Source: a virus. From it: a stretch of DNA of 64,000 nt. The notes beneath the pieces are model-generated. The model worked only from the letters and a program-made list of their open reading frames with translations. It searched no databases and had not been told where the DNA came from. A program made the position numbers and the translations under genes. Shown piece by piece: positions 41,457 to 59,686 of this stretch. The DNA lies in IMG/VR virus record IMGVR_UViG_3300022187_000017, positions 1-64,000 of that record; one strand, 5' to 3'. Each line of letters begins with the position of its first letter. Within the stretch, counting starts at the first letter, position 1.

Positions 41457-42284
41457 TTAGTATTTAAAATAGTCATAGAACCATTGATAAGATGCAATTA
41501 CACTTGCACTAAGGTTCCTTCCTAAAATTTCATCCCAGTCTGGTTTTAATGGTTGAACTTTCTTTCTGATTATATGATCTCCAAATGGGCCATATACTCT
41601 ATCATCTTCATGAGTAATTTGTTCTACATTATCAAAGTCATGATCATAATAAGGAAGTCCTAAGTACTCATACACCCTTTCCATTTCAGCTTTAGGATTT
41701 TCTGTGAAATCTTCAAACTTAATGAACAGTATATGTTCATCATTCCCTACATCGATTATCTCTTTTAGTCTTTCTAATGCCAATCCTACTGGAGGTGAAT
41801 TAGACCACCTAACTAATCTCTTTTCAATAGTAGTTCCTTCACCCTTTCCCCAATCTACTACACCATTATCTGCTTCAGCATTCTTTCTATGCTTCTTCTC
41901 CATTGAAGAAAATACTCCTCTGAGATCTCTTACCATGCAAATCATCTTAGGATCCTCTGAGTAACTTTTTACAAAGTCATAATAATATCCCCAGCCTCTA
42001 CATTTATCGACTACTCTAGGCTTATCTGTGAGAGCTCCATACCACCCTTGTAAACTTCCTTGGCAAAATCCCTTCCATGCCTTCTTCATTTCTTCAGCAT
42101 CTTGTGCTCTGAATTCTTCTGCTGTGGAATATTGCTTCCTTGCTCCAAATAATAGCTCTGCTACTCCTGATGTTGGAGATACATAAAACTCTGGGTTCTG
42201 TCCTATCACATTCTGCAATAAGGTGCTCCCACTTCTTGGTATTGATGACTGGTAGTAAATCTCTATTCTACTATTCTTAGGCAT
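41457..42284 (-). CDS. PAPS-dependent sulfotransferase
   Basis: The 275-residue product matches the sulfotransferase fold. The PSB loop IPRSGSTLLQN (15-25) binds the 5'-phosphosulfate. The 3'-phosphate motif MVRDLRGVFSS (117-127) has Arg119 and Ser127. A C-terminal Lys/Gly-rich end would close over PAPS. Such enzymes transfer sulfate from PAPS to hydroxyl or amino groups of glycans, lipids or small molecules. The gene lies between two fibre-like genes, so sulfation of a host glycan or virion protein is possible. Marine phages often carry this family. Confidence 0.85.
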   Translation of the reverse strand: MPKNSRIEIYYQSSIPRSGSTLLQNVIGQNPEFYVSPTSGVAELLFGARKQYSTAEEFRAQDAEEMKKAWKGFCQGSLQGWYGALTDKPRVVDKCRGWGYYYDFVKSYSEDPKMICMVRDLRGVFSSMEKKHRKNAEADNGVVDWGKGEGTTIEKRLVRWSNSPPVGLALERLKEIIDVGNDEHILFIKFEDFTENPKAEMERVYEYLGLPYYDHDFDNVEQITHEDDRVYGPFGDHIIRKKVQPLKPDWDEILGRNLSASVIASYQWFYDYFKY

Positions 42285-47829: not shown

Positions 47830-47863
47830 GATTTTCAATTTATGTTTATTGTTGTTTAAGTTG

Positions 47864-47895
47864 CGAATATATAACTAATATATTTAATATCCTAA
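47864..47895 (-). promoter_or_regulatory. Bacteroidota-type promoter for the beta-barrel gene
   Basis: On the minus strand TATATTCG (47871-47864) forms the -7 box, with TTAG at 47895-47892 after 20 bases, a weak -33 box. It lies 35 bases upstream of the start. Confidence 0.5.
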
Positions 47896-48482
47896 TAAAA
47901 TTTTATATTGTGCCTTACACTGAAGGCTGTTGGATCATTAGTGATCTGAGGAGTCTCCAGCTCCTGTACAAAGGTTATTATCCTCAATCCATCCTCACTA
48001 CCATCATCATAATAGTAAGTCTCACTGTGGCCTCCTATGATCTCTCTACGTATCTTTGGGAACCTCTTCTGGATCTCTTTACTTAGATCCATATTGATTC
48101 CTTTGGCATGTAAGGCTTTCACTAGATGATATTCCTTCTGCTCAGTTATATCCTTTGACATCTTATCAATGGCTGCCTGCATATGGATCTGGCCTTCATC
48201 AAAGTCTATTGAGAACTTATTTGCTGTTGCTATCCTTCTTGGCTCAAAATAAACCTCTTCCACTCTATACCCTTCACATAAACCCCAGATCATCTTGGTG
48301 TCCCTGCATTGAATATATCCTACAGCATGATCAAATAATGCACCACCATACATTGCCTGTATTGGTTTTATACTTGGCTTTTCTATACATAACCCAACTC
48401 TACCATTGGCTCCTTCTGCTCCTGCTCCTCCATTTAATACTTTATAGAGGTACCCTACTTCTAATTGTTTTGTCTCTCCCAT
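47892..48482 (-). CDS. Hypothetical protein
   Basis: The product has 196 residues with a mixed alpha/beta pattern. Residues 10-60 contain GYLYKVLNGGAGAEGANGR and Cys/Gly-rich turns, and a helical part spans about 95-140. No family or active site is recognised. It overlaps the upstream gene by 22 bases in another frame. Confidence 0.55.
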   Translation of the reverse strand: MGETKQLEVGYLYKVLNGGAGAEGANGRVGLCIEKPSIKPIQAMYGGALFDHAVGYIQCRDTKMIWGLCEGYRVEEVYFEPRRIATANKFSIDFDEGQIHMQAAIDKMSKDITEQKEYHLVKALHAKGINMDLSKEIQKRFPKIRREIIGGHSETYYYDDGSEDGLRIITFVQELETPQITNDPTAFSVRHNIKFY

Positions 48483-48697
48483 AACTTGCTATTCTTCCCA
48501 TCTGCTGGGAATAGATTAAAATTCTGTTTTACTGTTCTAAATTCTAGATCTGCTGCTACATGATCCATTGCTGGAATGAACTTCTGTGGTATTTTTATAT
48601 TCTTCTCCCAGAGCCTTCTAAACTCATCCTTATCAATAGATAGCATTGGAGGTACTGTCCCTATTACTATCACCTTACCTGTTGATCCTGTACTCAT
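48461..48697 (-). CDS. Small hypothetical protein (MSTGST start)
   Basis: The product has 78 residues and begins MSTGSTGKVIVIG. The first codons and upstream bases repeat exactly those of the next gene upstream (a shared 21-base stretch), suggesting a duplicated start region. The rest differs and is soluble and unassigned. Confidence 0.5.
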   Translation of the reverse strand: MSTGSTGKVIVIGTVPPMLSIDKDEFRRLWEKNIKIPQKFIPAMDHVAADLEFRTVKQNFNLFPADGKNSKLWERQNN

Positions 48698-48713
48698 ACT
48701 ATAACTTGTTATT

Positions 48714-48884
48714 TTACCAACTACTACCCTTATAATTAGGTCTTTTTCTTGGCCTCATTCCTAATACTGATGGATGAACTAACTCAGGATCTCCATTCTC
48801 ATGTATGATCCATATTAGATCAAACCCTATCCAGTTTATCCTAACCTTCTCTCCAGTAGCTATAATTGTTGATCCTGTACTCAT
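48714..48884 (-). CDS. 56-residue hypothetical protein (MSTGST start)
   Basis: ATG at 48884 overlaps the stop of the upstream gene (ATGA) and opens a 56-codon frame ending in TGG TAA. The product begins MSTGSTIIATGEKVRINW and ends with an Arg/Lys-rich tail. The overlap and the tight gap support a real gene. Its first six residues match the downstream gene. Confidence 0.5.
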   Translation of the reverse strand: MSTGSTIIATGEKVRINWIGFDLIWIIHENGDPELVHPSVLGMRPRKRPNYKGSSW

Positions 48885-49249
48885 ACTGCTGTCTTGTTTA
48901 AGTCAATATATCTTGGCTTATCTGAGATCTTATTGAAGGAAAGACCTTCCTCATACATATCCTCTTGGAAGTATACCAGTCCAGACTCTACATTCACCTT
49001 GATCAATGGAAAGAATCCACCTATTGCAGATGTCTTAGTCTCATATCTGAATAACTTCTCATTAGGCCTCATCTTGAAGTCTGCATATTGACCTACCTCA
49101 AACTCATCCAATGGATATAGGTAGAAGTCTTGACTCACATCTTTAAGTCCAAATGCTCCTACAGACTGTAGGCCATGGCTCTGTTGGCTCTCCCAGATCT
49201 TACACCCCTTGAATGTCTCTAGATCTGTAATTGTTAATCGATTATTCAT
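48881..49249 (-). CDS. Hypothetical protein
   Basis: The 122-residue product is mixed alpha/beta (DLETFKGCKIWES, then EDMYEEGLSFNKISDK), soluble, without a recognised family. A Bacteroidota-type promoter lies 30-60 bases upstream, so it opens the operon running to 47.9 kb. Confidence 0.55.
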   Translation of the reverse strand: MNNRLTITDLETFKGCKIWESQQSHGLQSVGAFGLKDVSQDFYLYPLDEFEVGQYADFKMRPNEKLFRYETKTSAIGGFFPLIKVNVESGLVYFQEDMYEEGLSFNKISDKPRYIDLNKTAV

Positions 49250-49277
49250 GATGAAATGATTTATTGTTATTAGACTG

Positions 49278-49309
49278 CTAATATAATCATTATATTTTTA
49301 ATACGCAAA
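49278..49309 (-). promoter_or_regulatory. Bacteroidota-type promoter
   Basis: On the minus strand TTTG (49309-49306) and TATATTAG (49285-49278) are separated by 20 bases. It faces the 122-residue gene and the genes below it. Confidence 0.65.
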
Positions 49310-49319
49310 TTTATCTTTA

Positions 49320-50108
49320 TTACATCACCCAATCCTCTACTATATCTGGCTCTACTCCTGCCTCCAGAGCTTCCTGTACTGACTTGATAGATTCTCCATT
49401 CTTGAATGTATGGCCTATCTGCTCCTCTACAGCTACATACTCAGCTAATAACTCTGGGTTCTCTTTACCTGCTATTAGGAGTGCATTGAATGGACTGAAG
49501 ATACAGAAACAACATGACAGCCTTGGCATCCCCAGATCATATGCTTTATGATACTCCAGATTGTTACCCTTGATCACATCCCAGACCTTCTTAGAGCTCC
49601 AGTCATGTACAGGTAGATAATCTATCACTGTCCTCTTCTTAGTGGTTAACTGCTTATTTAATGACTCCACCTTTCTCTTAGATCTGGCTGGAGACTCCTC
49701 TGCTCTGAATCCAAATACATACAGGATCTTACAAACTCCCATCTCTTTAGTTAGCTTAGTTACTACTCTAGCACCCGGGCCACGCTTGAAATCACTGGTA
49801 CACCATCTCTGTTGGCTACTTGGCCACTTACCTCTCCTCACTGCATACTCCAGAAGATCCTCCTCATAGCCATCCTTATCTCTTCTCTTGCTGTAATAGG
49901 TCTTTAGTCCCCAGTGATCAGATTGTCTCTTAACTAGCTCCTTTGTGCCTTTCCACTCAACCTTACCTAGATCCTGATGTGACACTACTAACTGATCCAG
50001 AGGATAGCACTGTTCCAATGCCATCTGAACCATTTGCCAGACAGACACTAGAGAGTCCTTCCCTCCAGATGAATTGATGATCACTAGATCATAGTCAGCT
50101 AAGATCAT
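49320..50108 (-). CDS. PP-loop ATPase (PAPS-reductase/DndC-like)
   Basis: The product has 262 residues. SSGGKDSL (13-20) is the PP-loop. QRWCTSDFKRGP near 100-111 and RLSCCFCIFSP near 200-210 match the Cys-bearing blocks of phage PAPS-reductase/adenine-nucleotide alpha-hydrolase proteins, which may hold an iron-sulfur cluster. The C-terminus is helical. It activates a substrate by adenylation, with sulfate reduction, DNA phosphorothioation or base modification all possible. No dnd partner is visible. Confidence 0.75.
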   Translation of the reverse strand: MILADYDLVIINSSGGKDSLVSVWQMVQMALEQCYPLDQLVVSHQDLGKVEWKGTKELVKRQSDHWGLKTYYSKRRDKDGYEEDLLEYAVRRGKWPSSQQRWCTSDFKRGPGARVVTKLTKEMGVCKILYVFGFRAEESPARSKRKVESLNKQLTTKKRTVIDYLPVHDWSSKKVWDVIKGNNLEYHKAYDLGMPRLSCCFCIFSPFNALLIAGKENPELLAEYVAVEEQIGHTFKNGESIKSVQEALEAGVEPDIVEDWVM

Positions 50109-50464
50109 AAGTAGACCATTTTAAGGATCTCCTCTTCCCACTCCTTGTAAGAAGGATCTAACTCAAACTTAAAAGTCTGAGGATTGTACTGTGAAGGATG
50201 AATAGCTGAATAATTCACCTCTCTCTTCACCTGATCAGAGGCTTTAAGATAATCAAGTATCTGCTCAATTCCCATCATAAACAAAGATGCAGAGAAATAC
50301 TTATCTACTGTCTCCATTTTAGATGTGTTCTTCTCCCCATTAAAGTAAGTCACTCTAATGATAGGCTTACCAGTATCAAGACACTTAAATGTGTCAACTG
50401 GGAAATCTAGACCTAGACTCTCTAGGCTCTTCTTAATTTCACTAATTGCTTTTTGTGATGTCAT
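50105..50464 (-). CDS. Hypothetical protein
   Basis: I choose ATG 50464 (MTSQKAISEIKKSL), because a strong promoter -7 box lies at 50488-50495 and a longer frame would place its start inside the promoter. The 119-residue product is mixed alpha/beta. It overlaps the PP-loop gene by 4 bases (ATGA), so they are coupled. No family is recognised. Confidence 0.55.
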   Translation of the reverse strand: MTSQKAISEIKKSLESLGLDFPVDTFKCLDTGKPIIRVTYFNGEKNTSKMETVDKYFSASLFMMGIEQILDYLKASDQVKREVNYSAIHPSQYNPQTFKFELDPSYKEWEEEILKMVYL

Positions 50465-50487
50465 AATTGTTGTTTTTAATTCTGGTG

Positions 50488-50519
50488 TAAATATAGTTAC
50501 TATATATTTACTGTGCAAA
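50488..50519 (-). promoter_or_regulatory. Bacteroidota-type promoter for the PP-loop operon
   Basis: On the minus strand TTTG (50519-50516) and TATATTTA (50495-50488) are separated by 20 bases. It matches the phylum consensus except for the last base of the -7 box. Confidence 0.7.
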
Positions 50520-50579
50520 TTTATTTTTAGTGAAATGCCAAAATACCTTGTTAGCACCTATAAACACTAAGAAACTTTT

Positions 50580-50855
50580 TTAATATTTTATTTTTACATG
50601 AATCTCATCAAATAGCATTATGCTTAATGTATCACCATCTGATGTTGACATATTATTGATGTTAATAGCATCTATCATAGTCTGGCTGTAGCTGCAGTCT
50701 TTCATCTCTTCTCTGGCATTCTCTATCATCCATTCATACCACAGCTTGTGAATAGCATTATAATTTCTACCCCTTGGAGATAACTTCTTTCTAGGTATTG
50801 GAGTTAACTTCCTTCCTGATTTACTTCTGGGATCATCTGCTAACATTATCATCAT
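50580..50855 (-). CDS. Small basic protein
   Basis: This 91-residue protein has a very basic N-terminal part (about 9-35), suggesting nucleic-acid or membrane contact, then a helical centre with an aromatic-rich KLWYEWMIENAREEM segment. No family is recognised. It starts 4 bases past the second PP-loop gene. Confidence 0.5.
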   Translation of the reverse strand: MMIMLADDPRSKSGRKLTPIPRKKLSPRGRNYNAIHKLWYEWMIENAREEMKDCSYSQTMIDAININNMSTSDGDTLSIMLFDEIHVKIKY

Positions 50856-50859
50856 ATCT

Positions 50860-51756
50860 CTAATATTTACTCATTACACAATGGCCATGGGACATCTTGT
50901 AGTCCACCAGCTCCTGCTCTGTCATATGCCCAAACTTCTCCAGAGCTGTTTTAAGGACTTCTGGGAGAGGATCTTTCTTACCCCACACACCAAGATTCTT
51001 TTCTTCCATGTGCTCATTAGCCTTCATCTTATTGGCCTCCAGCTTCACCCAGAGGTCATATGATGCTCTGTCATATCTATACAAGTACAATAACTCCTGC
51101 AGGCTCATGAATGGACATAAGATGCAATTGGAAGGATAAGGTACCTTCTCACCTACACTGGTGATGTAATCCTGACATGCTTGCCGATCCATACCCTCTT
51201 CAATCAATGGATACTGCTTATTGATGCAAGTATTAAACCATTTCATCCCACTGGAGCCATTCTCAGAGGCTCTCTTCTCTTCTCCCTTAGCAATGCCTAT
51301 AAGTACATTGATCTTCCCGTACTTCTCAGCAAACTCATAGAATGCTGCTTTCCTACCATACTTCTCAGTGTTGTAGTTGTGATGTACATACAGCTCTAGG
51401 AACTTGTAGATAGGCCTGATCTTCAGGTTATCTGTACAAGTCTTAGGGAATGCCTTAGATCCAACTGTATTTTTGCTCTGGTAGAATTTGATCAATCCAC
51501 CCTTCCAGCTATTGGATGCCCATAGATCAGGCTCCAGATGAAAGAATGGGATCTTATGCTCATCACATAGCTCTTCTACTCTCTCCAGATACTTATCAGT
51601 ATGATCATGCTCATTTCTGGTATTAGCCATAACCACAATAAGATCACCCTTCACATATTTGGCCTTGAATACTGGATCATGTAAACACTTAAAGAGGATG
51701 GCAGTTGAATCCTGCCCTCCTCCATAAGATAACATTGTAAGCTCTTTCTTCTCCAT
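50860..51756 (-). CDS. PP-loop ATPase (phage PAPS-reductase-like) with Cys motif
   Basis: The product has 298 residues. SYGGGQDSTAIL (10-21) is the PP-loop. KTCTDNLKIRPIYKFL near 103-118 and CILCPFM near 215-221 are Cys-bearing blocks like those of phage PAPS-reductase-like enzymes. The C-terminal region is helical with a HCVMSKY end. It differs from the neighbouring PP-loop protein and shares only the loop and Cys logic, so it is a second, divergent enzyme. The substrate is unknown. Confidence 0.75.
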   Translation of the reverse strand: MEKKELTMLSYGGGQDSTAILFKCLHDPVFKAKYVKGDLIVVMANTRNEHDHTDKYLERVEELCDEHKIPFFHLEPDLWASNSWKGGLIKFYQSKNTVGSKAFPKTCTDNLKIRPIYKFLELYVHHNYNTEKYGRKAAFYEFAEKYGKINVLIGIAKGEEKRASENGSSGMKWFNTCINKQYPLIEEGMDRQACQDYITSVGEKVPYPSNCILCPFMSLQELLYLYRYDRASYDLWVKLEANKMKANEHMEEKNLGVWGKKDPLPEVLKTALEKFGHMTEQELVDYKMSHGHCVMSKY

Positions 51757-52079
51757 TACACTAAGCTATGTGCTGTTGCTTGAGAGATCACTGGAAGATC
51801 CTGTGCCTTCTTAACGATCAATTCTAGATCTGCTTCTGCTCTGTATAAAGATACTAGGTTCCCATCTTCTTTGGCCTCATCTGCATTCTCCTTGATAAAA
51901 GTATCACATAGCTCCATTAAATCATTGTATAAGAATCCATCCTGCAATCCATGAAGGCTATTGATGAAGTTATTAAACCCATGCCCATACTGTGAAAAAG
52001 TTCTGATTGTGTTACTTAGGAATGATAATTCGATTCTGTTGAAGTTCTCTTGTCTGTTGAAATTTGTGTAATTTGCCAT
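51756..52079 (-). CDS. Small hypothetical protein
   Basis: This 107-residue helical protein overlaps the next gene by TAATG. It follows a Bacteroidota-type promoter and the 200-base gap behind the tmRNA gene. The central part is an Asp/Glu-rich helix. No motif is recognised. Confidence 0.55.
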   Translation of the reverse strand: MANYTNFNRQENFNRIELSFLSNTIRTFSQYGHGFNNFINSLHGLQDGFLYNDLMELCDTFIKENADEAKEDGNLVSLYRAEADLELIVKKAQDLPVISQATAHSLV

Positions 52080-52109
52080 GATTTGATGTTTTTGTTGTTA
52101 TTAATGATG

Positions 52110-52140
52110 TAAATATAGTTACTATATCTCATTCCTGCAA
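52110..52140 (-). promoter_or_regulatory. Bacteroidota-type promoter
   Basis: On the minus strand TTG (52140-52138) and TATATTTA (52117-52110) are separated by 20 bases. It faces the 107-residue gene and the second PP-loop gene. Confidence 0.65.
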
Positions 52141-52198
52141 GACTTTTTTTACTTAAAACATCAAATAATTTATAACTCACTGATTACCAGTGAGAAAA

Positions 52199-52221
52199 AT
52201 ATGCATATTTTTTATGCATAT
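52199..52221. repeat. AT-rich inverted repeat
   Basis: ATATGCATA and TATGCATAT form perfect 9-base arms around TTTTT. It lies in the gap between the tmRNA terminator and the promoter of the next operon. It may be a protein site or a weak hairpin. A nearby ATGTATACAT palindrome adds to the symmetry. No function is known. Confidence 0.4.
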
Positions 52222-52299
52222 CACCCATATATGTATAAAAAAGTGCATAAATGTATACATATATGCTAACAATGCATGATCTTTCATACCAATAAAAAA

Positions 52300-52333
52300 G
52301 GGAGGATTTACGATCCATTACTGGATTCCTCCC
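52300..52333 (-). terminator. Terminator of the tmRNA gene
   Basis: GGGAGGA and TCCTCCC form a 7-bp stem; an inner ATCC/GGAT stem shapes the loop. On the minus strand it is followed by a run of six T. It lies 8 bases after the tag stop codon, so the coding piece ends here or just before. Confidence 0.75.
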
Positions 52334-52590
52334 ATACGTCTTATGCAGCCATTCTAAATGGTGCAGTAGATTGTTGTATAACTTCTGGAGTTATAATTAA
52401 AATAGCCTCCTTTATCGCTTCTTTACGCTGTCAAAACCAGTCTACCCCATGTTCCCAGATATAGTGCTGGGATCACTTCCACTTTTTAAACAACCTCCTT
52501 CTGGAGATAGTGGAGTAGATGGGAGTCGAACCCATGTCCAAACATAATCCACAATAATATCAACGAACTACTTTGCTGTAAAGATAGTAA
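52300..52590 (-). ncRNA. ssrA: Circularly permuted (two-piece) tmRNA gene
   Basis: Reading the minus strand, an acceptor piece comes first. It holds the T arm (ATGGG-TTCGACT-CCCAT, 52535-52519), acceptor strand CTACTCC (52518-52512) and discriminator A (52511); CCA is not encoded. A spacer of about 60 bases with two small hairpins follows. The coding piece begins GGGGTAG (52448-52442), which pairs fully with CTACTCC using one G-U, then GGTTTTGACAG (52438-52428), the tmRNA D-loop-like consensus. P2 forms between GCGTAAAGA (52428-52420) and TCTTTACAGC (52584-52575), with one bulge. PK1 uses GGAG/CTCC and TATAA/TTATA. The tag frame follows (GCA at 52364-52362 to TAA at 52343-52341) and encodes APFRMAA. 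The exact 5' end is not known; processing by RNases would release the two pieces. It tags stalled peptides and frees ribosomes. Confidence 0.9.
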
Positions 52591-52636
52591 ATCTATCGCT
52601 TTGTATATGATTTCGTTTTAATGAATTATATACTTT

Positions 52637-52736
52637 GTTGTGTGTAGTTTTATACCCGATAAGGTATAATATATGATACATTAACCTATATTATACCCGA
52701 TAAGGTATAATAACTCACTCATAAATTACACACAAC
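52637..52736. repeat. Nested repeat array upstream of the tmRNA gene
   Basis: Two identical copies of TTATACC-N6-GGTATAA plus one further T (52650-52670 and 52691-52711) are 41 bases apart, about four helical turns. Each can form a 7-bp hairpin. A perfect 10-base inverted repeat (GTTGTGTGTA at 52637-52646, TACACACAAC at 52727-52736) encloses both. No other copy was seen in the window. It could bind a regulator of the tmRNA or of the adjacent gene, or form a folded RNA leader. The right arm overlaps the 3' end of the Gp88-like gene. Confidence 0.6.
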
Positions 52737-53325
52737 TCTTTATATGATTATCTAGAAGATAAAAACATACATCTGGCTTTCTGGCCTCATCATCATTATA
52801 GTCTATAGGCATCCCTACAGCCTCTTCTACAGTCTTAACCACTATTGTATGCTTCAATCCATATTCCTCTATTAAATGATCATCCCTACCTCCATAACTA
52901 GCTGTTAGGACTAAATTGGAAGGGATCTCATCTATTCTGGCTACCCAATATCTCAGAGACTTTGTATATGCCCAGAATTCAACCTCTGGATGATCTCTAC
53001 ATAACTGCAGCCACATGTCAAAGTATTTCTGGGAGAAGAAGTCTCCAGATGAATGGATCCTTACTGACTCACATTTATTGGGAATCACTGGGATCCCTCC
53101 AGCTCTTGCAAAATCAAAGTTATCCCATCTATGATCTCTCACTGCTGGGAATCTCTCTGCACTGGCTGCATAACATCTATATGCATCACTGCTGTTCTCA
53201 AACTTACCTGTCTCCCTGTCTACCTTCACTAAGCATTCCTCAGCAAATGGACAGGTATGGCCTGTTGGCATGTTCCATTCAAATACTACACCAGTGTAAT
53301 ATTTAGTCTTTCTTGTAAACTTCAT
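52726..53325 (-). CDS. Gp88-like phage protein (PF17338-type)
   Basis: The product has 199 residues. Cys residues cluster in TCPFAEECLVK near 24-34, with another in YRCYAASAERF near 49-58. VRIHSSGDFFSQKYFDMW near 88-105 and VEFWAYTKSLRYW near 113-125 match the gene product 88 family. The biochemical role of that family is not established to my knowledge; the Cys set suggests metal or iron-sulfur binding. Its 3' end abuts the repeat array that precedes the tmRNA gene. Confidence 0.7.
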   Translation of the reverse strand: MKFTRKTKYYTGVVFEWNMPTGHTCPFAEECLVKVDRETGKFENSSDAYRCYAASAERFPAVRDHRWDNFDFARAGGIPVIPNKCESVRIHSSGDFFSQKYFDMWLQLCRDHPEVEFWAYTKSLRYWVARIDEIPSNLVLTASYGGRDDHLIEEYGLKHTIVVKTVEEAVGMPIDYNDDEARKPDVCFYLLDNHIKSCV

Positions 53326-53343
53326 AGTTCATTATTTATTAGT

Positions 53344-53360
53344 GTTCATGTTACATGAAC
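53344..53360. promoter_or_regulatory. 17-bp palindrome between genes
   Basis: GTTCATG and CATGAAC are perfect 7-base arms around TTA. It lies 19 bases upstream of the Gp88-like start and 18 bases past the stop of the upstream gene. It is suited to a dimeric repressor site or a small hairpin. Confidence 0.4.
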
Positions 53361-53378
53361 AGTCCTCTAGACTGAACA

Positions 53379-53795
53379 TTATGCTGGAATATACTCTCCA
53401 GACTCTTCTCTATCATTCCTGAAGAAGATCCCTCCAGCATAGTGCTCATAAGACCTCTTCACTTTAATGTCTTGCCATCCCTTATAATCTGGGATCAATC
53501 TATACACTAGCTCTGCATAGCACTTCACATCTATACCATTGGGTACATAGATAGTCATCAACTTAGTTGACTGCTCTGGATCCTTCTTATCGATCAGCTT
53601 TTGAGTCCCCACCTTGAATGGAGCTTTAGTGTAATATAGGAATCCCTTCAATGCATCATACAGAAACATAGCATCCTGAACTGTCTTACCTTGGATAGAA
53701 AGTTTCCATCCATCAGATGTTTCTGAGTCTGTATTGACCATTAGGAAGTATCTGTTACTGTCCTTCAATTCGTTATATAGTGCTGGTGTTGCCAT
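53379..53795 (-). CDS. Hypothetical protein
   Basis: The 138-residue product has a beta-rich N-terminus (YFLMVNTDSETSDGWKLSI) and a helix near 40-55, ending in an acidic tail. It is soluble, without a recognised family. It starts 3 bases past the stop of the upstream gene. Confidence 0.55.
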   Translation of the reverse strand: MATPALYNELKDSNRYFLMVNTDSETSDGWKLSIQGKTVQDAMFLYDALKGFLYYTKAPFKVGTQKLIDKKDPEQSTKLMTIYVPNGIDVKCYAELVYRLIPDYKGWQDIKVKRSYEHYAGGIFFRNDREESGEYIPA

Positions 53796-53798
53796 AGT

Positions 53799-54023
53799 CT
53801 ATCTCTCTTCTATTGTTACTGCAGTGTCATATACTGCCACTGGATACTTCTTCAGCCTACCACTGATATCTCTCTTCTCTTCAGATCCTGCAGATGTTAC
53901 TGTCTGCTTCTGAGTCTGCTTCAGAAATGTCATTGCCTTCCCATGAGTTGGAAAATGAACCTCAGACCTCATTAATGTGAGGCCTGTGATCCTGTCTTTA
54001 TGTGTTACTGTGATGTGTATCAT
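53799..54023 (-). CDS. Small hypothetical protein
   Basis: The product has 74 residues, beta-rich and basic, with an early HITVTHKDRITGLTLM strand pair and a helical Thr/Gln-rich stretch. No family is recognised. It lies 3 bases past a 43-residue microprotein. Confidence 0.5.
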   Translation of the reverse strand: MIHITVTHKDRITGLTLMRSEVHFPTHGKAMTFLKQTQKQTVTSAGSEEKRDISGRLKKYPVAVYDTAVTIEER

Positions 54024-54026
54024 AGC

Positions 54027-54158
54027 TTAGTTGCTTAAAGTTTGTATTGCATCCTCATAAGATAGATCTTCTCCTCTTTCCTCTGCCTGCATCATGGCTA
54101 ATCTAGCCAAGTGATGTAGATCTAATCCTATTAAAAACTCTCTTTTTTCTGTTGTCAT
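54027..54158 (-). CDS. 43-residue microprotein
   Basis: ATG at 54158 starts a 43-codon frame (MTTEKREFLIGLDLHH...) ending 4 bases before the next start. The product is helical and acidic at the end. A Bacteroidota-type promoter sits 29 bases upstream, so this is the first gene of its operon, which supports the call despite its size. Confidence 0.55.
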   Translation of the reverse strand: MTTEKREFLIGLDLHHLARLAMMQAEERGEDLSYEDAIQTLSN

Positions 54159-54186
54159 GATATGCTATTTTGCTGTTATTCTGGTG

Positions 54187-54217
54187 TAAATATATACTAA
54201 CTATATTTAATACACAA
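54187..54217 (-). promoter_or_regulatory. Bacteroidota-type promoter
   Basis: On the minus strand TTG (54217-54215) and TATATTTA (54194-54187) are separated by 20 bases. It faces the 43-residue gene and the genes to 52.7 kb. Confidence 0.65.
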
Positions 54218-54234
54218 CAAAAAAGTGAAAAACT

Positions 54235-54465
54235 TTATGAACTTTGTCTATTCTTCTTATAGGAATGAGAGTCTATCTGGTGCTTATAGATCACCCTCAG
54301 CAGGCCTGTATATCCATATGGCTTATTCTCTGGACATAGGATCTTCTGTGCTTTCTTCACACTCCCTTTAGTCTTTTTGAGTGCTGCAATGATCATCCTC
54401 TTCTCTCCTGCAAAGAGGTTAAATTCCCCTTTGTACATATTTGGTGTATATAATTTATCAGCCAT
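54235..54465 (-). CDS. Fis-like helix-turn-helix protein
   Basis: The product has 76 residues. EKRMIIAALKKTKGSVKKAQKIL (split about 21-43) and the following GLLRVIYKHQI (54-64) match the three-helix HTH_8/Fis pattern 'E...I..aL..t.G....A...L......L...i...i'. It is probably a DNA-binding regulator. A four-base loop insertion between helices two and three (PENKPYG) is unusual. It overlaps the upstream stop (TAATG). Confidence 0.6.
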   Translation of the reverse strand: MADKLYTPNMYKGEFNLFAGEKRMIIAALKKTKGSVKKAQKILCPENKPYGYTGLLRVIYKHQIDSHSYKKNRQSS

Positions 54466-54692
54466 TATCCTAGTATTTTTAATCTCTCAATATCCTTCTT
54501 TGTTGCCATATAAAACATCTCTCTGAGTTGCTTGAATGTTAGATCTCTCAATCTCTTAGTTCCATAATAACTCTGAAAATCTTCCATGTGCTTATCCTTA
54601 TACTCCAGCAGGTAGTATTTAATTCTACTAGGTATTTGATCTAATGGATCTGTTTTTTTTGGAGTATTCTCCCCTTCCCATGTTCCACTCAT
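54465..54692 (-). CDS. Small hypothetical protein
   Basis: The 75-residue product has a charged N-terminus and a helical C-terminal part (LRDLTFKQLREMFYM). It is coupled by TAATG to the Fis-like gene. No family is recognised. Confidence 0.5.
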   Translation of the reverse strand: MSGTWEGENTPKKTDPLDQIPSRIKYYLLEYKDKHMEDFQSYYGTKRLRDLTFKQLREMFYMATKKDIERLKILG

Positions 54693-54711
54693 AACTTCTC
54701 TTTTAGTTCTC

Positions 54712-54894
54712 TCATGATTTCTGTTTATTTACCCATTTAATTGCATTCTTATGATCTTTAATCTCTTCTATGAGTCCTTTGTACTCTGGATCCAGTTCCT
54801 CTTCAGGGAGTATTCCATGTCCCATTCCTACCAGTTCTCTTTCATAGTGTTCCATAGTAGTCTTTAGTAACCTTAATGCTAATGCTTTACTCAT
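54712..54894 (-). CDS. Small helical protein
   Basis: The 60-residue product is helical and amphipathic, with an acidic centre (GHGILPEEELDPE). It lies in the early-like row of small genes. No motif is recognised. Confidence 0.5.
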   Translation of the reverse strand: MSKALALRLLKTTMEHYERELVGMGHGILPEEELDPEYKGLIEEIKDHKNAIKWVNKQKS

Positions 54895-54896
54895 GA

Positions 54897-55079
54897 TTAC
54901 TTATAATTACGATTAACTAAGTAGCTACTTAGCGTTAATGGCTTAGGGCATTCCTCTAATGGCTTTCTACTGTGTATATGCCCATTGAAACTTTGCTTAG
55001 TTACTTCAGTACTAAACCCCAAACTACACCCAAAAGATGTTAAGGCTCTACAGTTGTTACAATTTCTTTTCATTCCCAT
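54897..55079 (-). CDS. Small Cys-rich protein
   Basis: The 60-residue product has four Cys in CNNCRALTSFGC and ECPKP, which may bind zinc. It starts 2 bases past the upstream stop. No family is recognised. Confidence 0.5.
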   Translation of the reverse strand: MGMKRNCNNCRALTSFGCSLGFSTEVTKQSFNGHIHSRKPLEECPKPLTLSSYLVNRNYK

Positions 55080-55081
55080 CT

Positions 55082-55327
55082 CTATCCTTCTTTTATTTTA
55101 AATACACTCCAGCCTTTAGGATTGCCATCTGGATCCACTGTTCTTAGTGTCCCTGCTGCACCCATTAGAAGATACTCAAATGTACCTCCCATCATGTCTA
55201 TGAAGATCTGAGTAACTCTACTCCCACCTCTCATGTATGATATCCCTCTGGTATAATCAGAAGGCTCCAGAAAGACATTTGGATGTCTCACTGGAGTCTC
55301 TTGGTTTAAGTATTGATCTAATGTCAT
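55082..55327 (-). CDS. Small hypothetical protein
   Basis: The 81-residue product has a short N-terminal helix and a beta-rich Gly/Thr middle (GISYMRGGSRVTQIFIDMMG). It is coupled to the upstream gene by TAATG. No family is recognised. Confidence 0.5.
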   Translation of the reverse strand: MTLDQYLNQETPVRHPNVFLEPSDYTRGISYMRGGSRVTQIFIDMMGGTFEYLLMGAAGTLRTVDPDGNPKGWSVFKIKEG

Positions 55328-55983
55328 TACTTGATCTTTCTAGTGGTTACAATGAACCTGTGATGAGGAGCTACTAAATGACCATCTACCCAGATGAATC
55401 TGCAATGGAACTCTTGAGTCTCCTGTTGGATAAGGATCTCTAATTCGCTCCCTCTAGCTCTTGCTGTTGATAATGTCATCTTCTCAGTTGACTTGGCCTC
55501 AGATAATACTCTTAATACCAGCTTATCAAATCTCTGGATCCAACCTTTGTTGGCCTCAGTCATAAATTTGAACTTAGTCAATGACTCTCTTCCAATCATT
55601 ATTCTAGTTGCATTCAGCTTATCCCACTCTCCCATTATAGTCCACTTGGATACTGGAGTATTTAACCACTCTTCTCTCTGTCTATCACTAAACTTCTGGT
55701 AAGAATTTCCATATCTACCATTGTCATAAGGAGCACTCTGACCTAGATCTCCTCTTGTGATAACATCTGTATACTTCTCAGCTGCTGCCTCTCTTGATTC
55801 AGCATCAACTATCATTAACTCCTCTTCAAGATCTTCTAACTGATCCCAATGGTAGTTAGTATACGCTGTCATAAATTTGTTCTCAAAGTCTCTTAGCATC
55901 TTGGCTAATTTCATCTCTAGATTAGACTTCTGAATTCTTCTTCTTTTTACTTCTGCTTGTGATAATTCCTTAATTAGTGTCAT
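55327..55983 (-). CDS. Hypothetical protein
   Basis: The 218-residue product has a coiled-coil N-terminal part (about 5-75) with a RRRIQK cluster, a Gly/Tyr-rich loop, and a mixed C-terminal region. It is soluble and not recognised. It is the first gene after a Bacteroidota-type promoter at 56015-56045. Confidence 0.55.
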   Translation of the reverse strand: MTLIKELSQAEVKRRRIQKSNLEMKLAKMLRDFENKFMTAYTNYHWDQLEDLEEELMIVDAESREAAAEKYTDVITRGDLGQSAPYDNGRYGNSYQKFSDRQREEWLNTPVSKWTIMGEWDKLNATRIMIGRESLTKFKFMTEANKGWIQRFDKLVLRVLSEAKSTEKMTLSTARARGSELEILIQQETQEFHCRFIWVDGHLVAPHHRFIVTTRKIK

Positions 55984-56014
55984 AATATGATATTTATTTG
56001 TTGTTAATATGGTG

Positions 56015-56045
56015 CTAAAATATAGTTAATATATTTACTGTGCAA
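56015..56045 (-). promoter_or_regulatory. Bacteroidota-type promoter
   Basis: On the minus strand TTG (56045-56043) and TATTTTAG (56022-56015) are separated by 20 bases. It faces the 218-residue gene. Confidence 0.6.
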
Positions 56046-56286
56046 GAAAAAGATGATTTATTTTCACTTTAAATGAATAACACCTCCTTAGAATACCATT
56101 ATTCAACCTCATCACATAAGAATAGTGACATTTGTCATAGCCTTCATAGTGATCCTTAACATAGGCAATAGCATCAAAATAGTGATCTGCCATTACTGTC
56201 ACATAAGTACTTCCAGAGGATCCATAGATCCCCTTATTGAATACTTCCTCGGTTCCTTGATATGGATATGTCCCAGCAAAATACAT
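56035..56286 (-). CDS. Small hypothetical protein
   Basis: The 83-residue product is Tyr/Gly-rich and beta-like (YPYQGTEEVFNKGIYGSSG, then HYFDAIAYVKDHYEG), with a basic C-terminus. No family is recognised. Its 3' end overlaps the promoter of the next operon. It shares base 56286 with the stop of the upstream gene. Confidence 0.5.
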   Translation of the reverse strand: MYFAGTYPYQGTEEVFNKGIYGSSGSTYVTVMADHYFDAIAYVKDHYEGYDKCHYSYVMRLNNGILRRCYSFKVKINHLFLAQ

Positions 56287-56474
56287 TATCTACCTATTGA
56301 TTTTAATACTGTGTTAACCTCTCCTAGGTCTTGAGCTTCTTCTTTAGTTGAAGAATATCCAGTATTGTAGTCTCTATCACTACTGTCTATTAGATGAAAC
56401 TTCTCTGATCTGGTTCCATAAATGATCTTCTCTTCTGGCTTACAATTTGCTAATGCTTTGATAAATGTATACAT
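56286..56474 (-). CDS. Small hypothetical protein
   Basis: I choose ATG 56474 (MYTFIKALANCKPEE) because an in-frame ATG 33 bases upstream overlaps the promoter -7 box. The 62-residue product is soluble and unassigned. It is coupled to the next gene by a one-base overlap. Confidence 0.5.
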   Translation of the reverse strand: MYTFIKALANCKPEEKIIYGTRSEKFHLIDSSDRDYNTGYSSTKEEAQDLGEVNTVLKSIGR

Positions 56475-56493
56475 AATTTGTTGTTTTAGGCTA

Positions 56494-56525
56494 CTAAAAT
56501 ATAACAAGTATATTTAATACGCAAA
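56494..56525 (-). promoter_or_regulatory. Bacteroidota-type promoter
   Basis: On the minus strand TTTG (56525-56522) and TATTTTAG (56501-56494) are separated by 20 bases. It faces the 62-residue gene. Confidence 0.65.
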
Positions 56526-56532
56526 TAAAACA

Positions 56533-57366
56533 TCATTTATTTTTATCTACCAGTACCATCCCATAGTCATTTACTCCCTCTGGGATCTGTAGGCCCTGCT
56601 TCTTGATCATCTCATTATTCTTGAATCCACTATAATTCACCTGATGATGCCATCTCTCATACCTCCAGACTACCTTCACAACATCAGGATGCTGCCTCTG
56701 GAGACTCTCAGCAAACTCTTTCCTGTTATTGGTGTCTTTATATACCTCATCAGTATTGCCTCCCTTCATCTTCATTGTTGTGGCCTTCTGCTGTATGAAT
56801 GCATTGAATAGGACTGTTGGATGCCCATCCTTCAGGATCCTAAGACATAGATCTGTATCCTCATTGTACTTACCTCTCCACCTGTACTCCAGATCATTCT
56901 TGATCAATGTGCAGCTGTAGATCCTGTTATTCCTTGAGAATGCTGGCATGACTGTCTTGGCCTTGGCAAAGTGATCATACTGGAATCCTGCTAGTGCTAT
57001 GTTCTCATATCGATCTACAAAGATCTCTGCACACCTGAAGATAGTGCCATCTGTCACCTTCACCTGCAGGTTCCTGTTGAGTCTATTGAACTGCTCTATA
57101 TTGTCATCTAATAACCAGTGCCTCTCATGGCCTTCTGCAATAGAATGCTCCCAGACATAGTTTCTAGCTGGAATGGATCCCTGCCCTAAATTACTGAATG
57201 GGAGCTTTAATATCTTCTCTGGATCAATTACCTCAGCATAGCTATCATACTCCTGTGGCTCCACAACTATACGATAAGGGACTTTCATCCTCTCCAGAGT
57301 CTTAGATGTCATCCTTGACTTCCATCTGCCTTTAGAAATGATATAAACTGGATATTTAGGATTCAT
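56533..57366 (-). CDS. TET-associated-type glycosyltransferase
   Basis: The 277-residue product carries the TET/JBP-associated glycosyltransferase pattern: YIISKGRWKSRMT (8-20), IVVEPQEYDSY (33-43), ARNYVWEHS (67-75), HWLLDDNI (83-90, DxD-like acidic motif), VDRYENIALAGF (117-128), RWRGKYNEDTDLCLR (162-176) and GGNTDEVY (202-209). Known members glycosylate hydroxymethylated bases in phage DNA. No TET dioxygenase or cytosine methyltransferase is visible here. The small gene coupled to it upstream is often found near such enzymes. Confidence 0.8.
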   Translation of the reverse strand: MNPKYPVYIISKGRWKSRMTSKTLERMKVPYRIVVEPQEYDSYAEVIDPEKILKLPFSNLGQGSIPARNYVWEHSIAEGHERHWLLDDNIEQFNRLNRNLQVKVTDGTIFRCAEIFVDRYENIALAGFQYDHFAKAKTVMPAFSRNNRIYSCTLIKNDLEYRWRGKYNEDTDLCLRILKDGHPTVLFNAFIQQKATTMKMKGGNTDEVYKDTNNRKEFAESLQRQHPDVVKVVWRYERWHHQVNYSGFKNNEMIKKQGLQIPEGVNDYGMVLVDKNK

Positions 57367-57589
57367 CTCCTCTATACTCTAGATGTGCATATCTCCTAGG
57401 TGCCATATATGGATACCATAGTGACTTCTGCTTTGGAGTGATCTTCTGCTTCATGAGCTCTTCAAACTCCTTCACATCTTCATCATTCCTGAAGTGAACT
57501 ACTATCTTTCTCTTGGAAGTGAGATCCTCTTGATGGAATTCTGGCATATCTTTCCAGTCCTCCTTCCATGACTCATCCTTCTTGGCCAT
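57356..57589 (-). CDS. Small conserved phage protein (MPEFxQEDL type)
   Basis: The 77-residue product contains WKDMPEFHQEDL, KIVVHFRNDEDVKEF and TPKQKSLWYP, a pattern I recognise from small phage genes near DNA-modification or PP-loop enzymes. The domain's biochemistry is not known to me. It overlaps the glycosyltransferase start by 11 bases. Confidence 0.55.
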   Translation of the reverse strand: MAKKDESWKEDWKDMPEFHQEDLTSKRKIVVHFRNDEDVKEFEELMKQKITPKQKSLWYPYMAPRRYAHLEYRGDES

Positions 57590-57590
57590 C

Positions 57591-57974
57591 CTATTGAGTC
57601 TTTCCTAGCTCCTCTACTACAGCCTTATTGGACTGCTTCTGGATCTCAGCCATACCCAATAGACCTCTTACATTGGTGAAGTCTGCATATATTGTGAACT
57701 TACCATTAGTTACCATTGGCTTGAGTACTCCTAACATTATATTATATACATCAGCTGGAACACCATGCACTGGCATGACCAATCTCCATGGCTCTACATT
57801 CTTCTTCTCCTTCTTACAGTCATCAATATATCCCTTATTGATACTCATTAACTTCTCCTCCCAGTCTCTTACATTAGACTTTAGGTAGGCATCCAGCATC
57901 TTATTAGCTCTATCTACTCTTCTGAGTGTACCCCTACTGTTCTGTTGTACAAATAATTTTAATTTTTTTGCCAT
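57591..57974 (-). CDS. Hypothetical protein
   Basis: I choose ATG 57974 (MAKKLKLFVQQNS). A longer frame would start 51 bases upstream inside the previous gene. The 127-residue product is helical and basic at the start, then mixed. No family is recognised. It ends 1 base before the next start. Confidence 0.5.
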   Translation of the reverse strand: MAKKLKLFVQQNSRGTLRRVDRANKMLDAYLKSNVRDWEEKLMSINKGYIDDCKKEKKNVEPWRLVMPVHGVPADVYNIMLGVLKPMVTNGKFTIYADFTNVRGLLGMAEIQKQSNKAVVEELGKTQ

Positions 57975-57987
57975 TGTCTCTATTTTA

Positions 57988-58281
57988 TTATTTATGCTCC
58001 CATTTCTCTTTACCACAGTGAACACAATGAGTTAATGAAGTCCCTCCATAGTCTGGCCAGAAATTACATTTAGCAGTGTTCTCTACTGTTATATTTACGT
58101 TTATACTCTCTACTGGTGCATTTGGATAGAACTTAACTGTATACCCATCATCTCCCAGATCTCCTGTAGCTTTACCTATCTCCTCTCCTTCATAATAGGC
58201 TATTCCATCTACTACCATATAGTTCTCTGCATTCTCTAGATCATCAAAGATTAATGCTATGAAGATACCACTAACTTGCAT
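57988..58281 (-). CDS. Small protein with C-terminal Cys/His motif
   Basis: The 97-residue product has an acidic beta-rich N-terminal half and a C-terminal CNFWPDYGGTSLTHCVHCG. His/Cys spacing (C, H-C, H-C) suggests a small zinc-binding end. It overlaps a membrane microprotein by 11 bases. No family is recognised. Confidence 0.5.
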   Translation of the reverse strand: MQVSGIFIALIFDDLENAENYMVVDGIAYYEGEEIGKATGDLGDDGYTVKFYPNAPVESINVNITVENTAKCNFWPDYGGTSLTHCVHCGKEKWEHK

Positions 58282-58393
58282 GCTTGAAGTATATAGCGAT
58301 TATTCCTCCAATGGCTGCCAGTGAGATCAATACCCAGAGAATACTCCATGTATGATACTCCTTCCAGCTGTTGAATCTCTTTATCCAGCTCAT
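58271..58393 (-). CDS. 40-residue membrane microprotein
   Basis: ATG at 58393 overlaps the upstream stop (ATGA). The frame gives MSWIKRFNSWKEYHTWSILW..., with one hydrophobic helix (about 15-36) after a basic N-terminus. Coupling to both neighbours supports it. The function is unknown. Confidence 0.6.
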   Translation of the reverse strand: MSWIKRFNSWKEYHTWSILWVLISLAAIGGIIAIYFKHAS

Positions 58394-58620
58394 GATCTCT
58401 GCTTTGTCTGTTCTAGAATGATCTCTGAATTGATAATATCCCTCTTTGATTTATTGTAGGCTCTCATTGCCTGATCACCTATCCTGATACCAAATGCTGC
58501 TATCTCTCCAGTGATTACTTTGCCTGCATGCTCATTACCATCCAATAGTAATGCTGTTGCTGTTAAAATAACTGATGCCCAGACTGCTGCCCAGAAATTT
58601 GAAATGATTTTATCGTTCAT
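58390..58620 (-). CDS. Single-helix membrane protein
   Basis: The 76-residue product has one hydrophobic segment (about 8-25) and a helical, charged tail. The start at 58620 overlaps the stop of the upstream microprotein (ATGA). It could be a small holin-like or membrane-associated factor. No family is recognised. Confidence 0.55.
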   Translation of the reverse strand: MNDKIISNFWAAVWASVILTATALLLDGNEHAGKVITGEIAAFGIRIGDQAMRAYNKSKRDIINSEIILEQTKQRS

Positions 58621-58721
58621 GCTATTATTATTATGATTATTATTACTGCAACCATTACAATGAATGGCCAGCTGCAGCCTATTTTCTTGATCTGTCCATT
58701 GGGATATCTCTCTATCTTCAT
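58620..58721 (-). CDS. 33-residue membrane microprotein
   Basis: ATG at 58721 overlaps the upstream stop (ATGA). The product (MKIERYPNGQIKKIGCSWPF...) ends in a hydrophobic helix with an isoleucine run. Both ends overlap neighbours, supporting translation. The function is unknown. Confidence 0.55.
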
Positions 58722-58927
58722 GACTTCCCTAGTTTCTTCTCAACCCTATCCACAATAGTCTGTAGGTTCTGGATTGCTTTTGATTCCTCCATCTGATCCT
58801 CATAGACATCCATTGCCTTTGAGAGATCTTCATATGTCTCACACTCTTGTAGCTTTCCAACTAACTTAGAATGTGCAACCACTGCCTGCTGGATCTGATT
58901 CTTCTCTGTCTTACTTAAATTAGTCAT
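58718..58927 (-). CDS. Small helical protein
   Basis: The 69-residue product is helical and soluble with coiled-coil-like spacing. It overlaps both neighbours by 4 bases. No motif is recognised. Confidence 0.5.
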   Translation of the reverse strand: MTNLSKTEKNQIQQAVVAHSKLVGKLQECETYEDLSKAMDVYEDQMEESKAIQNLQTIVDRVEKKLGKS

Positions 58928-59163
58928 GATCTTATCTGTTCTGAATTGTTTAGTAACATCTTAAATTGATTGGATCTCTGTAGCTTACCATCTTCAACAC
59001 CTTGACTCACTCCAGTTGCAAATATATTCTCCACTACATCCTTTAAAGTCATATCTCTATGTATGATCATGTGCTCCTGAGTTATATTACACCAATATCT
59101 ATGCTTGTGAACTGCAGTTTTATCTGGATATATGTCTATTTTAGCTAACTGATTATCTGTCAT
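58924..59163 (-). CDS. Small hypothetical protein
   Basis: The 79-residue product has a His-rich part (HKHRYWCNITQEHM) and a soluble C-terminus. It is coupled at both ends by ATGA overlaps. No family is recognised. Confidence 0.5.
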   Translation of the reverse strand: MTDNQLAKIDIYPDKTAVHKHRYWCNITQEHMIIHRDMTLKDVVENIFATGVSQGVEDGKLQRSNQFKMLLNNSEQIRS

Positions 59164-59300
59164 ATTACTTCCATTGATGTTATGTCATCTATACTTGATA
59201 GAGTATTTTCTTCTATCCATCCTAGAGCTCCTATTAGTGTTTCAGCCTCTACTGAAGAGACTGTATTGCAATTATTGAATGTGAAATGATACTTCTTCAT
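59160..59300 (-). CDS. 46-residue microprotein
   Basis: ATG at 59300 overlaps the upstream stop (TAATG), and the stop overlaps the next start (ATGA). The product (MKKYHFTFNNCNTVSS...) is soluble and mildly acidic. Two overlaps make a real gene likely. Confidence 0.55.
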   Translation of the reverse strand: MKKYHFTFNNCNTVSSVEAETLIGALGWIEENTLSSIDDITSMEVI

Positions 59301-59512
59301 TAGAATGTTATTTCTAGTACAGCCTCATAAATGACAGATACTATTGATGTCAATGCTATTGCTGGGATCCACCAGACTGCATATGTAAATAGTAAATACC
59401 AGTTACCAGTAATGAATGCTACTATCACTGGCACTAACCAGATAGCAAATACTGACACTACTGCTATTAATGTGAATAGGCCTAATAACCCAATTTGGAA
59501 TGATTCTTTCAT
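59300..59512 (-). CDS. Two-helix membrane protein
   Basis: The 70-residue product has two hydrophobic segments (about 6-32 and 38-65) rich in Trp and Ile. It is probably a small inner-membrane protein, first after a Bacteroidota-type promoter. No family is recognised. Confidence 0.6.
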   Translation of the reverse strand: MKESFQIGLLGLFTLIAVVSVFAIWLVPVIVAFITGNWYLLFTYAVWWIPAIALTSIVSVIYEAVLEITF

Positions 59513-59531
59513 GATTCTCTATTTTAAGTTG

Positions 59532-59563
59532 CTAAAGTATAACAAATATATTTAACCTGCAAA
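59532..59563 (-). promoter_or_regulatory. Bacteroidota-type promoter
   Basis: On the minus strand TTTG (59563-59560) and TACTTTAG (59539-59532) are separated by 20 bases. It faces the two-helix membrane gene. The -33 box lies at the 3' end of the 44-residue gene upstream. Confidence 0.65.
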
Positions 59564-59686
59564 TTTATTATGATCATTATCATCATAGTTACCTAATATG
59601 ATCACCACCATCATAAGTACCAGTATGAACCCTGTTATTCCCTTTGCTGCTCCCTCTATTAGCATATTCATTGACTCTGTTTCCAT
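59552..59686 (-). CDS. 44-residue membrane microprotein
   Basis: ATG at 59686 starts METESMNMLIEGAAKG..., with one hydrophobic helix (about 17-32) and a charged C-terminus. The 3' end covers the promoter's -33 box. Context in a run of similar microproteins supports it, but no coupling overlap exists. Confidence 0.45.
   Translation of the reverse strand: METESMNMLIEGAAKGITGFILVLMMVVIILGNYDDNDHNKFAG

Follow-up and report, generated by a model that had tools for sequence, protein, structure and literature searches.

The 64-kb window analysed here (the whole stretch of DNA under study, from the 105,777-base virus record IMGVR_UViG_3300022187_000017) carries a permuted tmRNA gene on its minus strand at 52300–52590, as a preliminary description of this DNA had claimed. 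The Rfam permuted-tmRNA model RF04321 (tmRNA_permuted) matches 52556–52341 on the minus strand with 56.1 bits (E 3.2e-8; gathering score 47 bits), and covariation in relatives likewise bears the claim out. It is very likely, in our judgement, that this is the circularly permuted tmRNA gene of a Bacteroidota phage and that it is active in ribosome rescue, a reading in which processing, charging, use of SmpB, the rescue role and an independent origin are inferred.

The 3′ piece, with a P2 strand, the T arm and the acceptor, is encoded upstream of the 5′ piece, which follows a 62-nt spacer and consists of the acceptor, a D-like motif and the tag STAPFRMAA; a terminator-like hairpin comes last. 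The Rfam permuted model and the covariation support a permuted, presumably two-piece tmRNA gene; the cutting into two mature pieces is inferred, with no RNA data. The acceptor strands GGGGTAG and CTACTCC form 7 of 7 pairs, one of them G-U, exactly as originally described. CTACTCC is followed by a discriminator A; CCA is absent from the DNA, where CTA follows. The parts of the gene are as follows.

52294–52580, minus strand: whole permuted tmRNA gene (outer ends approximate), obtained by extending the RF04321 match at 52341–52556 to the P2 strand and the terminator-like hairpin.
52566–52574, minus strand: 3′ strand of helix P2, AAAGTAGTT, in the acceptor piece; own-partner helices score above swapped partners in 32 sequences.
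52519–52539, minus strand: GGAC and T arm (stem ATGGG/CCCAT, loop TTCGACT), from the RF04321 alignment; the outer T-stem pairs covary.
52511–52518, minus strand: 3′ strand of the acceptor stem, CTACTCC, plus discriminator A; CTACTCC pairs at all 7 positions with 52442–52448.
52449–52510, minus strand: intervening segment of 62 nt, expected to be removed, with a hairpin at its start; from sequence parse and fold.
52453–52477, minus strand: possible pseudoknot in the spacer, with a similar layout in L062 and L102.
52442–52448, minus strand: 5′ acceptor strand GGGGTAG, with the expected RNase P site at its 5′ end; from the acceptor pairing.
52428–52441, minus strand: D-like region AC-TGGTTTTGAC-AG with 2-nt linker; its signature equals that of 7 of 15 one-piece reference genes.
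52399–52407, minus strand: 5′ strand of helix P2, GGCTATTTT, at the position that covaries in relatives.
52377–52395, minus strand: hairpin TATAACT/AGTTATA preceding the tag, which may belong to PK1 (fold energy -3.1 kcal/mol, z -3.46).
52341–52370, minus strand: frame encoding the tag STAPFRMAA, with stop TAA; the resume codon was inferred from comparison, and R or K stands at -4 in 23 of 35 sequences.
52294–52333, minus strand: terminator-like hairpin GGGAGGA/TCCTCCC, then six T; from sequence and fold.

The preliminary description had suggested scanning with the Rfam permuted models and running ARAGORN. In the first of these, RF04321 exceeded its cut-off, but alpha_tmRNA, beta_tmRNA and cyano_tmRNA (RF01849–51) gave no gathering match in the window, the best match of an older model being RF01850 beta_tmRNA at 31.5 bits against a cut-off of 84 in a lax scan. 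ARAGORN, as run here, reported no tmRNA in the window. The one-piece model RF00023 reached a sub-threshold 24.4 bits at the site (cut-off 47). A pattern of T arm and acceptor, composed after the site had been read, occurred once in the 64 kb, where 0.02 occurrences were expected with up to 3 mismatches.

Pairing of the acceptor strands was compared across 19 distinct sequences, the window and 18 from viral contigs found with a narrow pattern and fetched without constraint on the acceptor. All 19 formed 7 of 7 pairs, whereas exchanging partners between sequences lowered the average to 5.8 (p 5e-5, the lowest value that 20,000 permutations can give). Each pairing, true or exchanged, was scored at the best of three linker lengths. 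In the same sequences, covariation extends to the two outer pairs of the T stem (2.0 versus 1.1 swapped). The covariation p values ignore relatedness and are therefore optimistic. Every one of the 19, the window included, has G3-U70; a G-U pair at this third position is an alanine identity element. Discriminator A and G3-U70 were constant as well in a wider set of 35 sequences, selected for a 2-nt linker or TTTGAC plus at least six acceptor pairs, so that this constancy is partly forced by the search patterns; CCA was encoded in eight of the 35.

Helix P2 had been drawn in the preliminary description between GCGTAAAGA and TCTTTACAGC. These strands can pair in the window, and their GTAAAGA/TCTTTAC core is the best helix of the window's sequence alone, yet they lie off the position common to relatives and were rejected as P2. 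The covarying position holds GGCTATTTT (52407–52399) with AAAGTAGTT (52574–52566), three of whose nine pairs are G-U. In the 32 of 35 sequences with enough flank, this helix scored 13.0 with own partners and 10.2 with swapped ones (p 5e-5). This position was fixed only once a search without such restriction, covering 70 by 40 nt, had hardly separated real from shuffled sequences (means 15.9 and 14.7), and the p value is thus optimistic. The pseudoknot PK1 that had been proposed stands in part, in that the 7-bp hairpin at 52395–52377 is clear by folding, but its partner helix GGAG/CTCC was read by eye only and overlaps P2 by one base. Similarly, sequence and fold provide the claimed terminator with a GGGAGGA/TCCTCCC stem and six T, beginning 7 nt past the tag stop, but a simple terminator scan flagged none at the tmRNA, presumably because its allowed loops are only 3–8 nt. 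There is a hint of a spacer pseudoknot shared in layout: the window, L062 and L102 have it in common, L036 and some other sequences have different candidates, and many have none.

The short tag frame of the preliminary description held up as well, ending in STAPFRMAA and a stop, with R or K four residues before the stop in 23 of 35 sequences, including the window's. This count was made by eye, and the tag script constrained nothing but the residue classes at the last two positions. Relatives have tags such as NAPLRAVA, FHAPLRAVA, FPAPLRAVA, NTTPLRMAV, FREPLRMAV, YNPSLRAVA and NNAPVRLAA. In named phages the tags are TDYTRIAA (cr125_1 and cr114_1), TDYTQLAVA (cr10_1) and a frame ending AKLEVAA (MA9V-3). 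cr50_1 shows no clear tag. Across the 35, the sequences without a clear tag are L058, L111, L222 and L275. Tags of the type ANDE/ANDN..A occur in L077, L179 and L214, which look like members of other lineages. Tags encoded by one-piece genes in the phylum sample include GEDNYALAA, GENNYALAA and GNTQYAMAA.

The virus is a phage with family matches to tail sheath, major head protein, head maturation protease, portal, RecA and the DNA polymerase III alpha subunit. In tblastn comparisons, its major capsid protein is closest to those of Bacteroides phages (39–40%), then to that of the cultivated Chryseobacterium phage MA9V-3 (33%); its portal is closest to MA9V-3 (41%), then to Bacteroides phages; and its polymerase is closest to MA9V-3 (37%), then to Cellulophaga and Tenacibaculum phages, with Bacteroides phages lower. 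The host is probably a member of Bacteroidota. This is inferred from the best matches of capsid, portal and polymerase, all of them in records of Bacteroides or Chryseobacterium phages, and there is no direct host link. The same host had earlier been proposed from promoters; the protein relatives back the host, but the promoter evidence itself is weak (2 matches to a Bacteroidota-type promoter in the window versus 0.31 expected).

According to the preliminary description, a permuted tmRNA in such a phage would be notable. The window's gene is not a lone example, MA9V-3 and crAss-like phages carrying the permuted form too. MA9V-3 (PV245944.1) matches RF04321 with 64.7 bits. Among eight crAss-like records examined, cr125_1, cr114_1, cr50_1 and cr10_1 have the permuted order and 7 of 7 acceptor pairs; cr114_1, cr53_1, cr50_1 and cr10_1 lie above the RF04321 cut-off, and cr125_1, cr115_1, cr52_1 and cr60_1 below it. 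Parsing failed to locate a T arm in cr115_1, cr52_1 and cr53_1, or a 5′ part in cr60_1; cr115_1, cr52_1 and cr60_1, below the cut-off and incompletely parsed, were not counted as permuted. The records of MA9V-3, cr125_1, cr114_1, cr50_1 and cr10_1 already label the gene SsrA, without mention of the permuted form. A broad permuted-tmRNA pattern was found in at least 119 stretches of viral contigs, suggesting that phage-borne permuted tmRNAs in general are common, and a narrower pattern with the TTTGAC variant in 19 stretches, whose hosts were not determined. RF04321 was passed by 18 of the 19 pattern relatives (14 of 15 in one scan, where L221 failed, and 4 of 4 in another). The Cellulophaga phages Calle_1 and phi38:1 have a one-piece tmRNA, so both forms occur in phages of Bacteroidota.

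The Bacteroides phages DAC16 and SJC03, with capsid proteins 39–40% identical, had no permuted match. Among 37 viral records scanned with RF04321, the window's own was the only one to match; the 36 others, mostly fragments, had been retrieved through capsid similarity. These include L121 and L122, fragments of 45 and 43 kb with a capsid protein identical to that of the phage, which are too short to inform, and several records of 110–150 kb. Comparison by blastn of the 5 kb around the tmRNA gene with phages gave no close relative; no viral locus was found with the PAPS-reductase-like neighbour as query, nor with a 200-aa protein. The many blastn matches of L055 were set aside as tRNA matches, the query having included a tRNA.

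In the bacteria themselves, 60 of 61 genomes of the sampled phylum pass the one-piece model, in keeping with the earlier statement that Bacteroidota tmRNA is a one-piece gene. The narrow pattern gave one match in a genome-contig collection of 84,980 species (L230, from a Bacteroidales MAG), which was rejected as a bacterial permuted gene, being a one-piece tmRNA with a chance downstream match. Of 392 genomes of the phylum to which this MAG belongs, only G280 passed the RF04321 cut-off, and it was again the only one to do so in 395 genomes of its order (overlap of the two samples was not checked). Its permuted copy lies in a chromosomal region that looks phage-like (4 of 10 neighbouring proteins have hits to helicase, polymerase or exonuclease families of phages), and G280 also has its own one-piece tmRNA (160.3 bits). 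Any RF04321 match at all was seen in 33 genomes of the phylum sample, one over the cut-off; among the 15 that were read, one was permuted (G280), seven had the one-piece order and seven were unresolved by pattern. Thus no permuted gene was found as a host's own in these limited searches (the 84,980-species collection and the 392- and 395-genome samples). A rare one is not excluded, because filtering was stricter for the large samples and variants other than TTTGAC fall outside the pattern.

As to where the permuted form came from, a separate permutation in the phage/host group, distinct from the three known lineages (alpha, beta and cyano), fits best; it is not proven, and the origin is inferred from sequence comparison. 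The signature of the window (2-nt linker, TTTTGAC, TGTTTGGAC) is found unchanged in 7 of the 15 genes of the one-piece reference, one of them G280's own, so the permuted form may well have originated within this group. Of the 35 phage genes, 29 resemble the 15-gene one-piece reference more than they do 76 other permuted genes; among the six with the opposite result is the copy in the phage region of G280. When left out one at a time, 14 of the 15 references and 6 of the 76 other permuted genes score toward the one-piece reference, the remaining 70 scoring away. At 19 symbols, taken from outside the T arm and acceptor, the signature is short; the reference was our own choice (13 genes parsed among 29 low-scoring loci of the phylum sample, and two others), and the phage set was partly picked by TTTGAC or the 2-nt linker, though the window and MA9V-3 were not. 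In addition, the phylum sample includes 27 further parsed one-piece genes, 26 of which score the opposite way, and seven of the eight looked at among 16 unparsed ones have other motifs. Over 139 parsed places, which are redundant, the commonest form was a 3-nt linker with TTTCGAC (70 places). The full proposal, for which we see the chances as evenly poised, is that of a fourth permuted-tmRNA lineage derived from Bacteroidota one-piece tmRNA, which would now reside in phages (myophages, crAss-like phages and prophages) rather than being the host's own gene, and would serve as a private ribosome-rescue RNA with its own tag type (ending in A-P-L-R-A/M-V/A-A or similar), using host SmpB, with the host's tag being different. 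Alternatively, the gene may have been borrowed from an alpha, beta or cyano lineage and have drifted in the phage, with no new permutation. RF04321, built from those three lineages, still matches (PMC11915505, as far as its available text goes), alpha-type genes are carried by phages according to the accessible portion of PMC9004378, the best match of an older model was to beta_tmRNA, if below the cut-off, and much of the phylum's one-piece sample lacks the signature. Against this stand the agreement with 7 of 15 reference genes, among them that of G280, the 70 of 76 other permuted genes that score away, and the one-piece tmRNA of Calle_1 and phi38:1, whose linker and TTTTGAC motif are identical. 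Because most other one-piece genes of the phylum lack the signature, the separate origin is held no more firmly than this, and borrowing, which we consider rather unlikely, is kept as a possibility.

Order, pairing, conservation, tag frame and phage location are directly seen for the phage tmRNA; its mode of action is a proposed model. A single transcript would be cut by host enzymes, by RNase P before GGGGTAG and by trimming after discriminator A, with loss of the 62-nt spacer and addition of CCA, leaving two pieces that the 7-bp acceptor stem and P2 would hold together. Host alanyl-tRNA synthetase would charge the RNA via the G3-U70 pair, and host SmpB would bring it to ribosomes stalled on broken messages, where alanine and STAPFRMAA would be added and the ribosome released. 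No SmpB gene was found in any of 12 phage records, several of them fragments, and it is assumed from this that host SmpB would serve. That charging elements, pairing and tag are all intact speaks for an active rescue RNA, the function itself being inferred. An RNA that instead binds SmpB, synthetase or ribosomes as a decoy, blocking or redirecting host rescue, has a precedent in the tmRNA-like RNA of phage DS6A, which lacks a tag frame and inhibits tmRNA (PMC11915505 and PMC4131195, each available in part), and the phage tag is indeed unlike the GEDNYALAA-type tags of the one-piece sample; a decoy, however, would not need the complete tag frame and stop that are retained here, with a tag type common to many relatives, and we think this improbable. 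It is more doubtful still that the gene is a passenger or decaying copy without function, left for instance after integration beside a host tmRNA gene. Such genes are common integration sites (PMC11915505, in the part available), but covarying stems and G3-U70 are retained across diverged phages, and the phage form is permuted whereas 60 of 61 sampled genomes pass the one-piece model. That the motifs match by chance in AT-rich phage DNA, as the silence of ARAGORN could suggest, can hardly be maintained given the Rfam E of 3.2e-8 over 64 kb and the covariation of relatives.

Permuted tmRNAs and phage copies of them are already known (PMC11915505 and PMC9004378, from the available text of each), and several of the genes discussed here are labelled SsrA. 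The accessible part of PMC11915505 gives three main bacterial clades with permuted tmRNA (alpha, beta and cyano) and lists 79 bacteriophage tmRNAs, and that of PMC9004378 reports 133 unique phage tmRNA structures, 53 of them two-piece as suggested by ARAGORN. The lineages behind RF04321 (PMC11915505, same portion) are like the window in gene order, T arm, acceptor pairing, D-like motif and tag frame; the window differs from them by its 2-nt linker and TTTTGAC, its tag and its inferred Bacteroidota phage. Methylophage Melnitz and other marine phages likewise carry permuted tmRNA, but their genes were grouped with alphaproteobacterial, cyanobacterial or gammaproteobacterial ones (PMC9004378, insofar as available), whereas the window shares its signature with some Bacteroidota one-piece genes. 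The SsrA of MA9V-3 (PV245944.1), from a related phage (portal 41%, polymerase 37%), has the permuted order and 7 of 7 acceptor pairs of the window but its own CGGTTTCGAC motif and the tag end AKLEVAA; it is listed in PMC13120357, whose accessible text does not contain the terms "permuted" or "two-piece". The crAss-like SsrA genes (cr125_1, cr114_1, cr50_1, cr10_1) share the permuted order and 2-nt linker, but their spacers, at 99–214 nt, are longer than the 62 nt of the window, and three have TDYTRIAA or TDYTQLAVA tags. The one-piece tmRNAs of Bacteroidota and of Calle_1 and phi38:1 have, in part, the AC linker and GGTTTTGAC motif of the window, but they differ from it in their one-piece order and in tags such as GEDNYALAA.

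Nothing on this lineage was found in the available portions of PMC10085705, PMC4131195, PMC9805569, PMC6235969 and PMC10013915, a term search of PMC10537231 had no hits, and no title or abstract among the matches listed described the phage lineage (subscription papers and preprints were outside the scope). What appears to be new is therefore a phage-borne Bacteroidota lineage with its own tag type, possibly a separate permutation. If true, this would add another case of a rare rearrangement, within a phylum where the bacteria sampled have the gene in one piece, and phages would maintain their own rescue RNA with a tag unlike that of the host; redirection by phages of the fate of stalled proteins during infection would become testable. 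There is also a blind spot in annotation, in that ARAGORN as run here misses the window's copy and SsrA labels are silent on the permuted form.

Several other features were observed. In crAss-like phages, RNAs of the Rfam families RAGATH-9, RAGATH-20 and RAGATH-22 precede annotated tmRNA genes, at upstream distances of up to about 420 nt (L271 835–1014, L229 2796–2964, L270 546–713, L272 550–652, L273 660–761 and L275 376–542), and those of L271 and L229 extend over the start of the tmRNA as annotated. In MA9V-3, a gene with the annotation ClpX is situated some 3.8 kb away from the tmRNA (L228 8939–9778; MA9V-3 26938–27777). The window encodes a TET-associated glycosyltransferase (TAGT) at 56533–57366, which suggests DNA base hypermodification in the phage, and a PAPS reductase domain, a second PAPS-reductase-like protein and a sulfotransferase at 49320–50108, 50860–51756 and 41457–42284, respectively. 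Repeated elements of 57 and 69 nt, mostly with a TATATTTA-like core, occur at 47857–59581 (five places) and 49257–52157 (three places) and are possibly phage promoters. Between the upstream gene and the tmRNA, at 52650–52710, there are two exact copies of a 20-bp element, TTATACCTTATCGGGTATAA, for which 0.01 matches would be expected with up to 3 mismatches; the two copies fold together (-29.9 kcal/mol, z -4.85) into a strong hairpin that could be an operator, a terminator or a processing signal.
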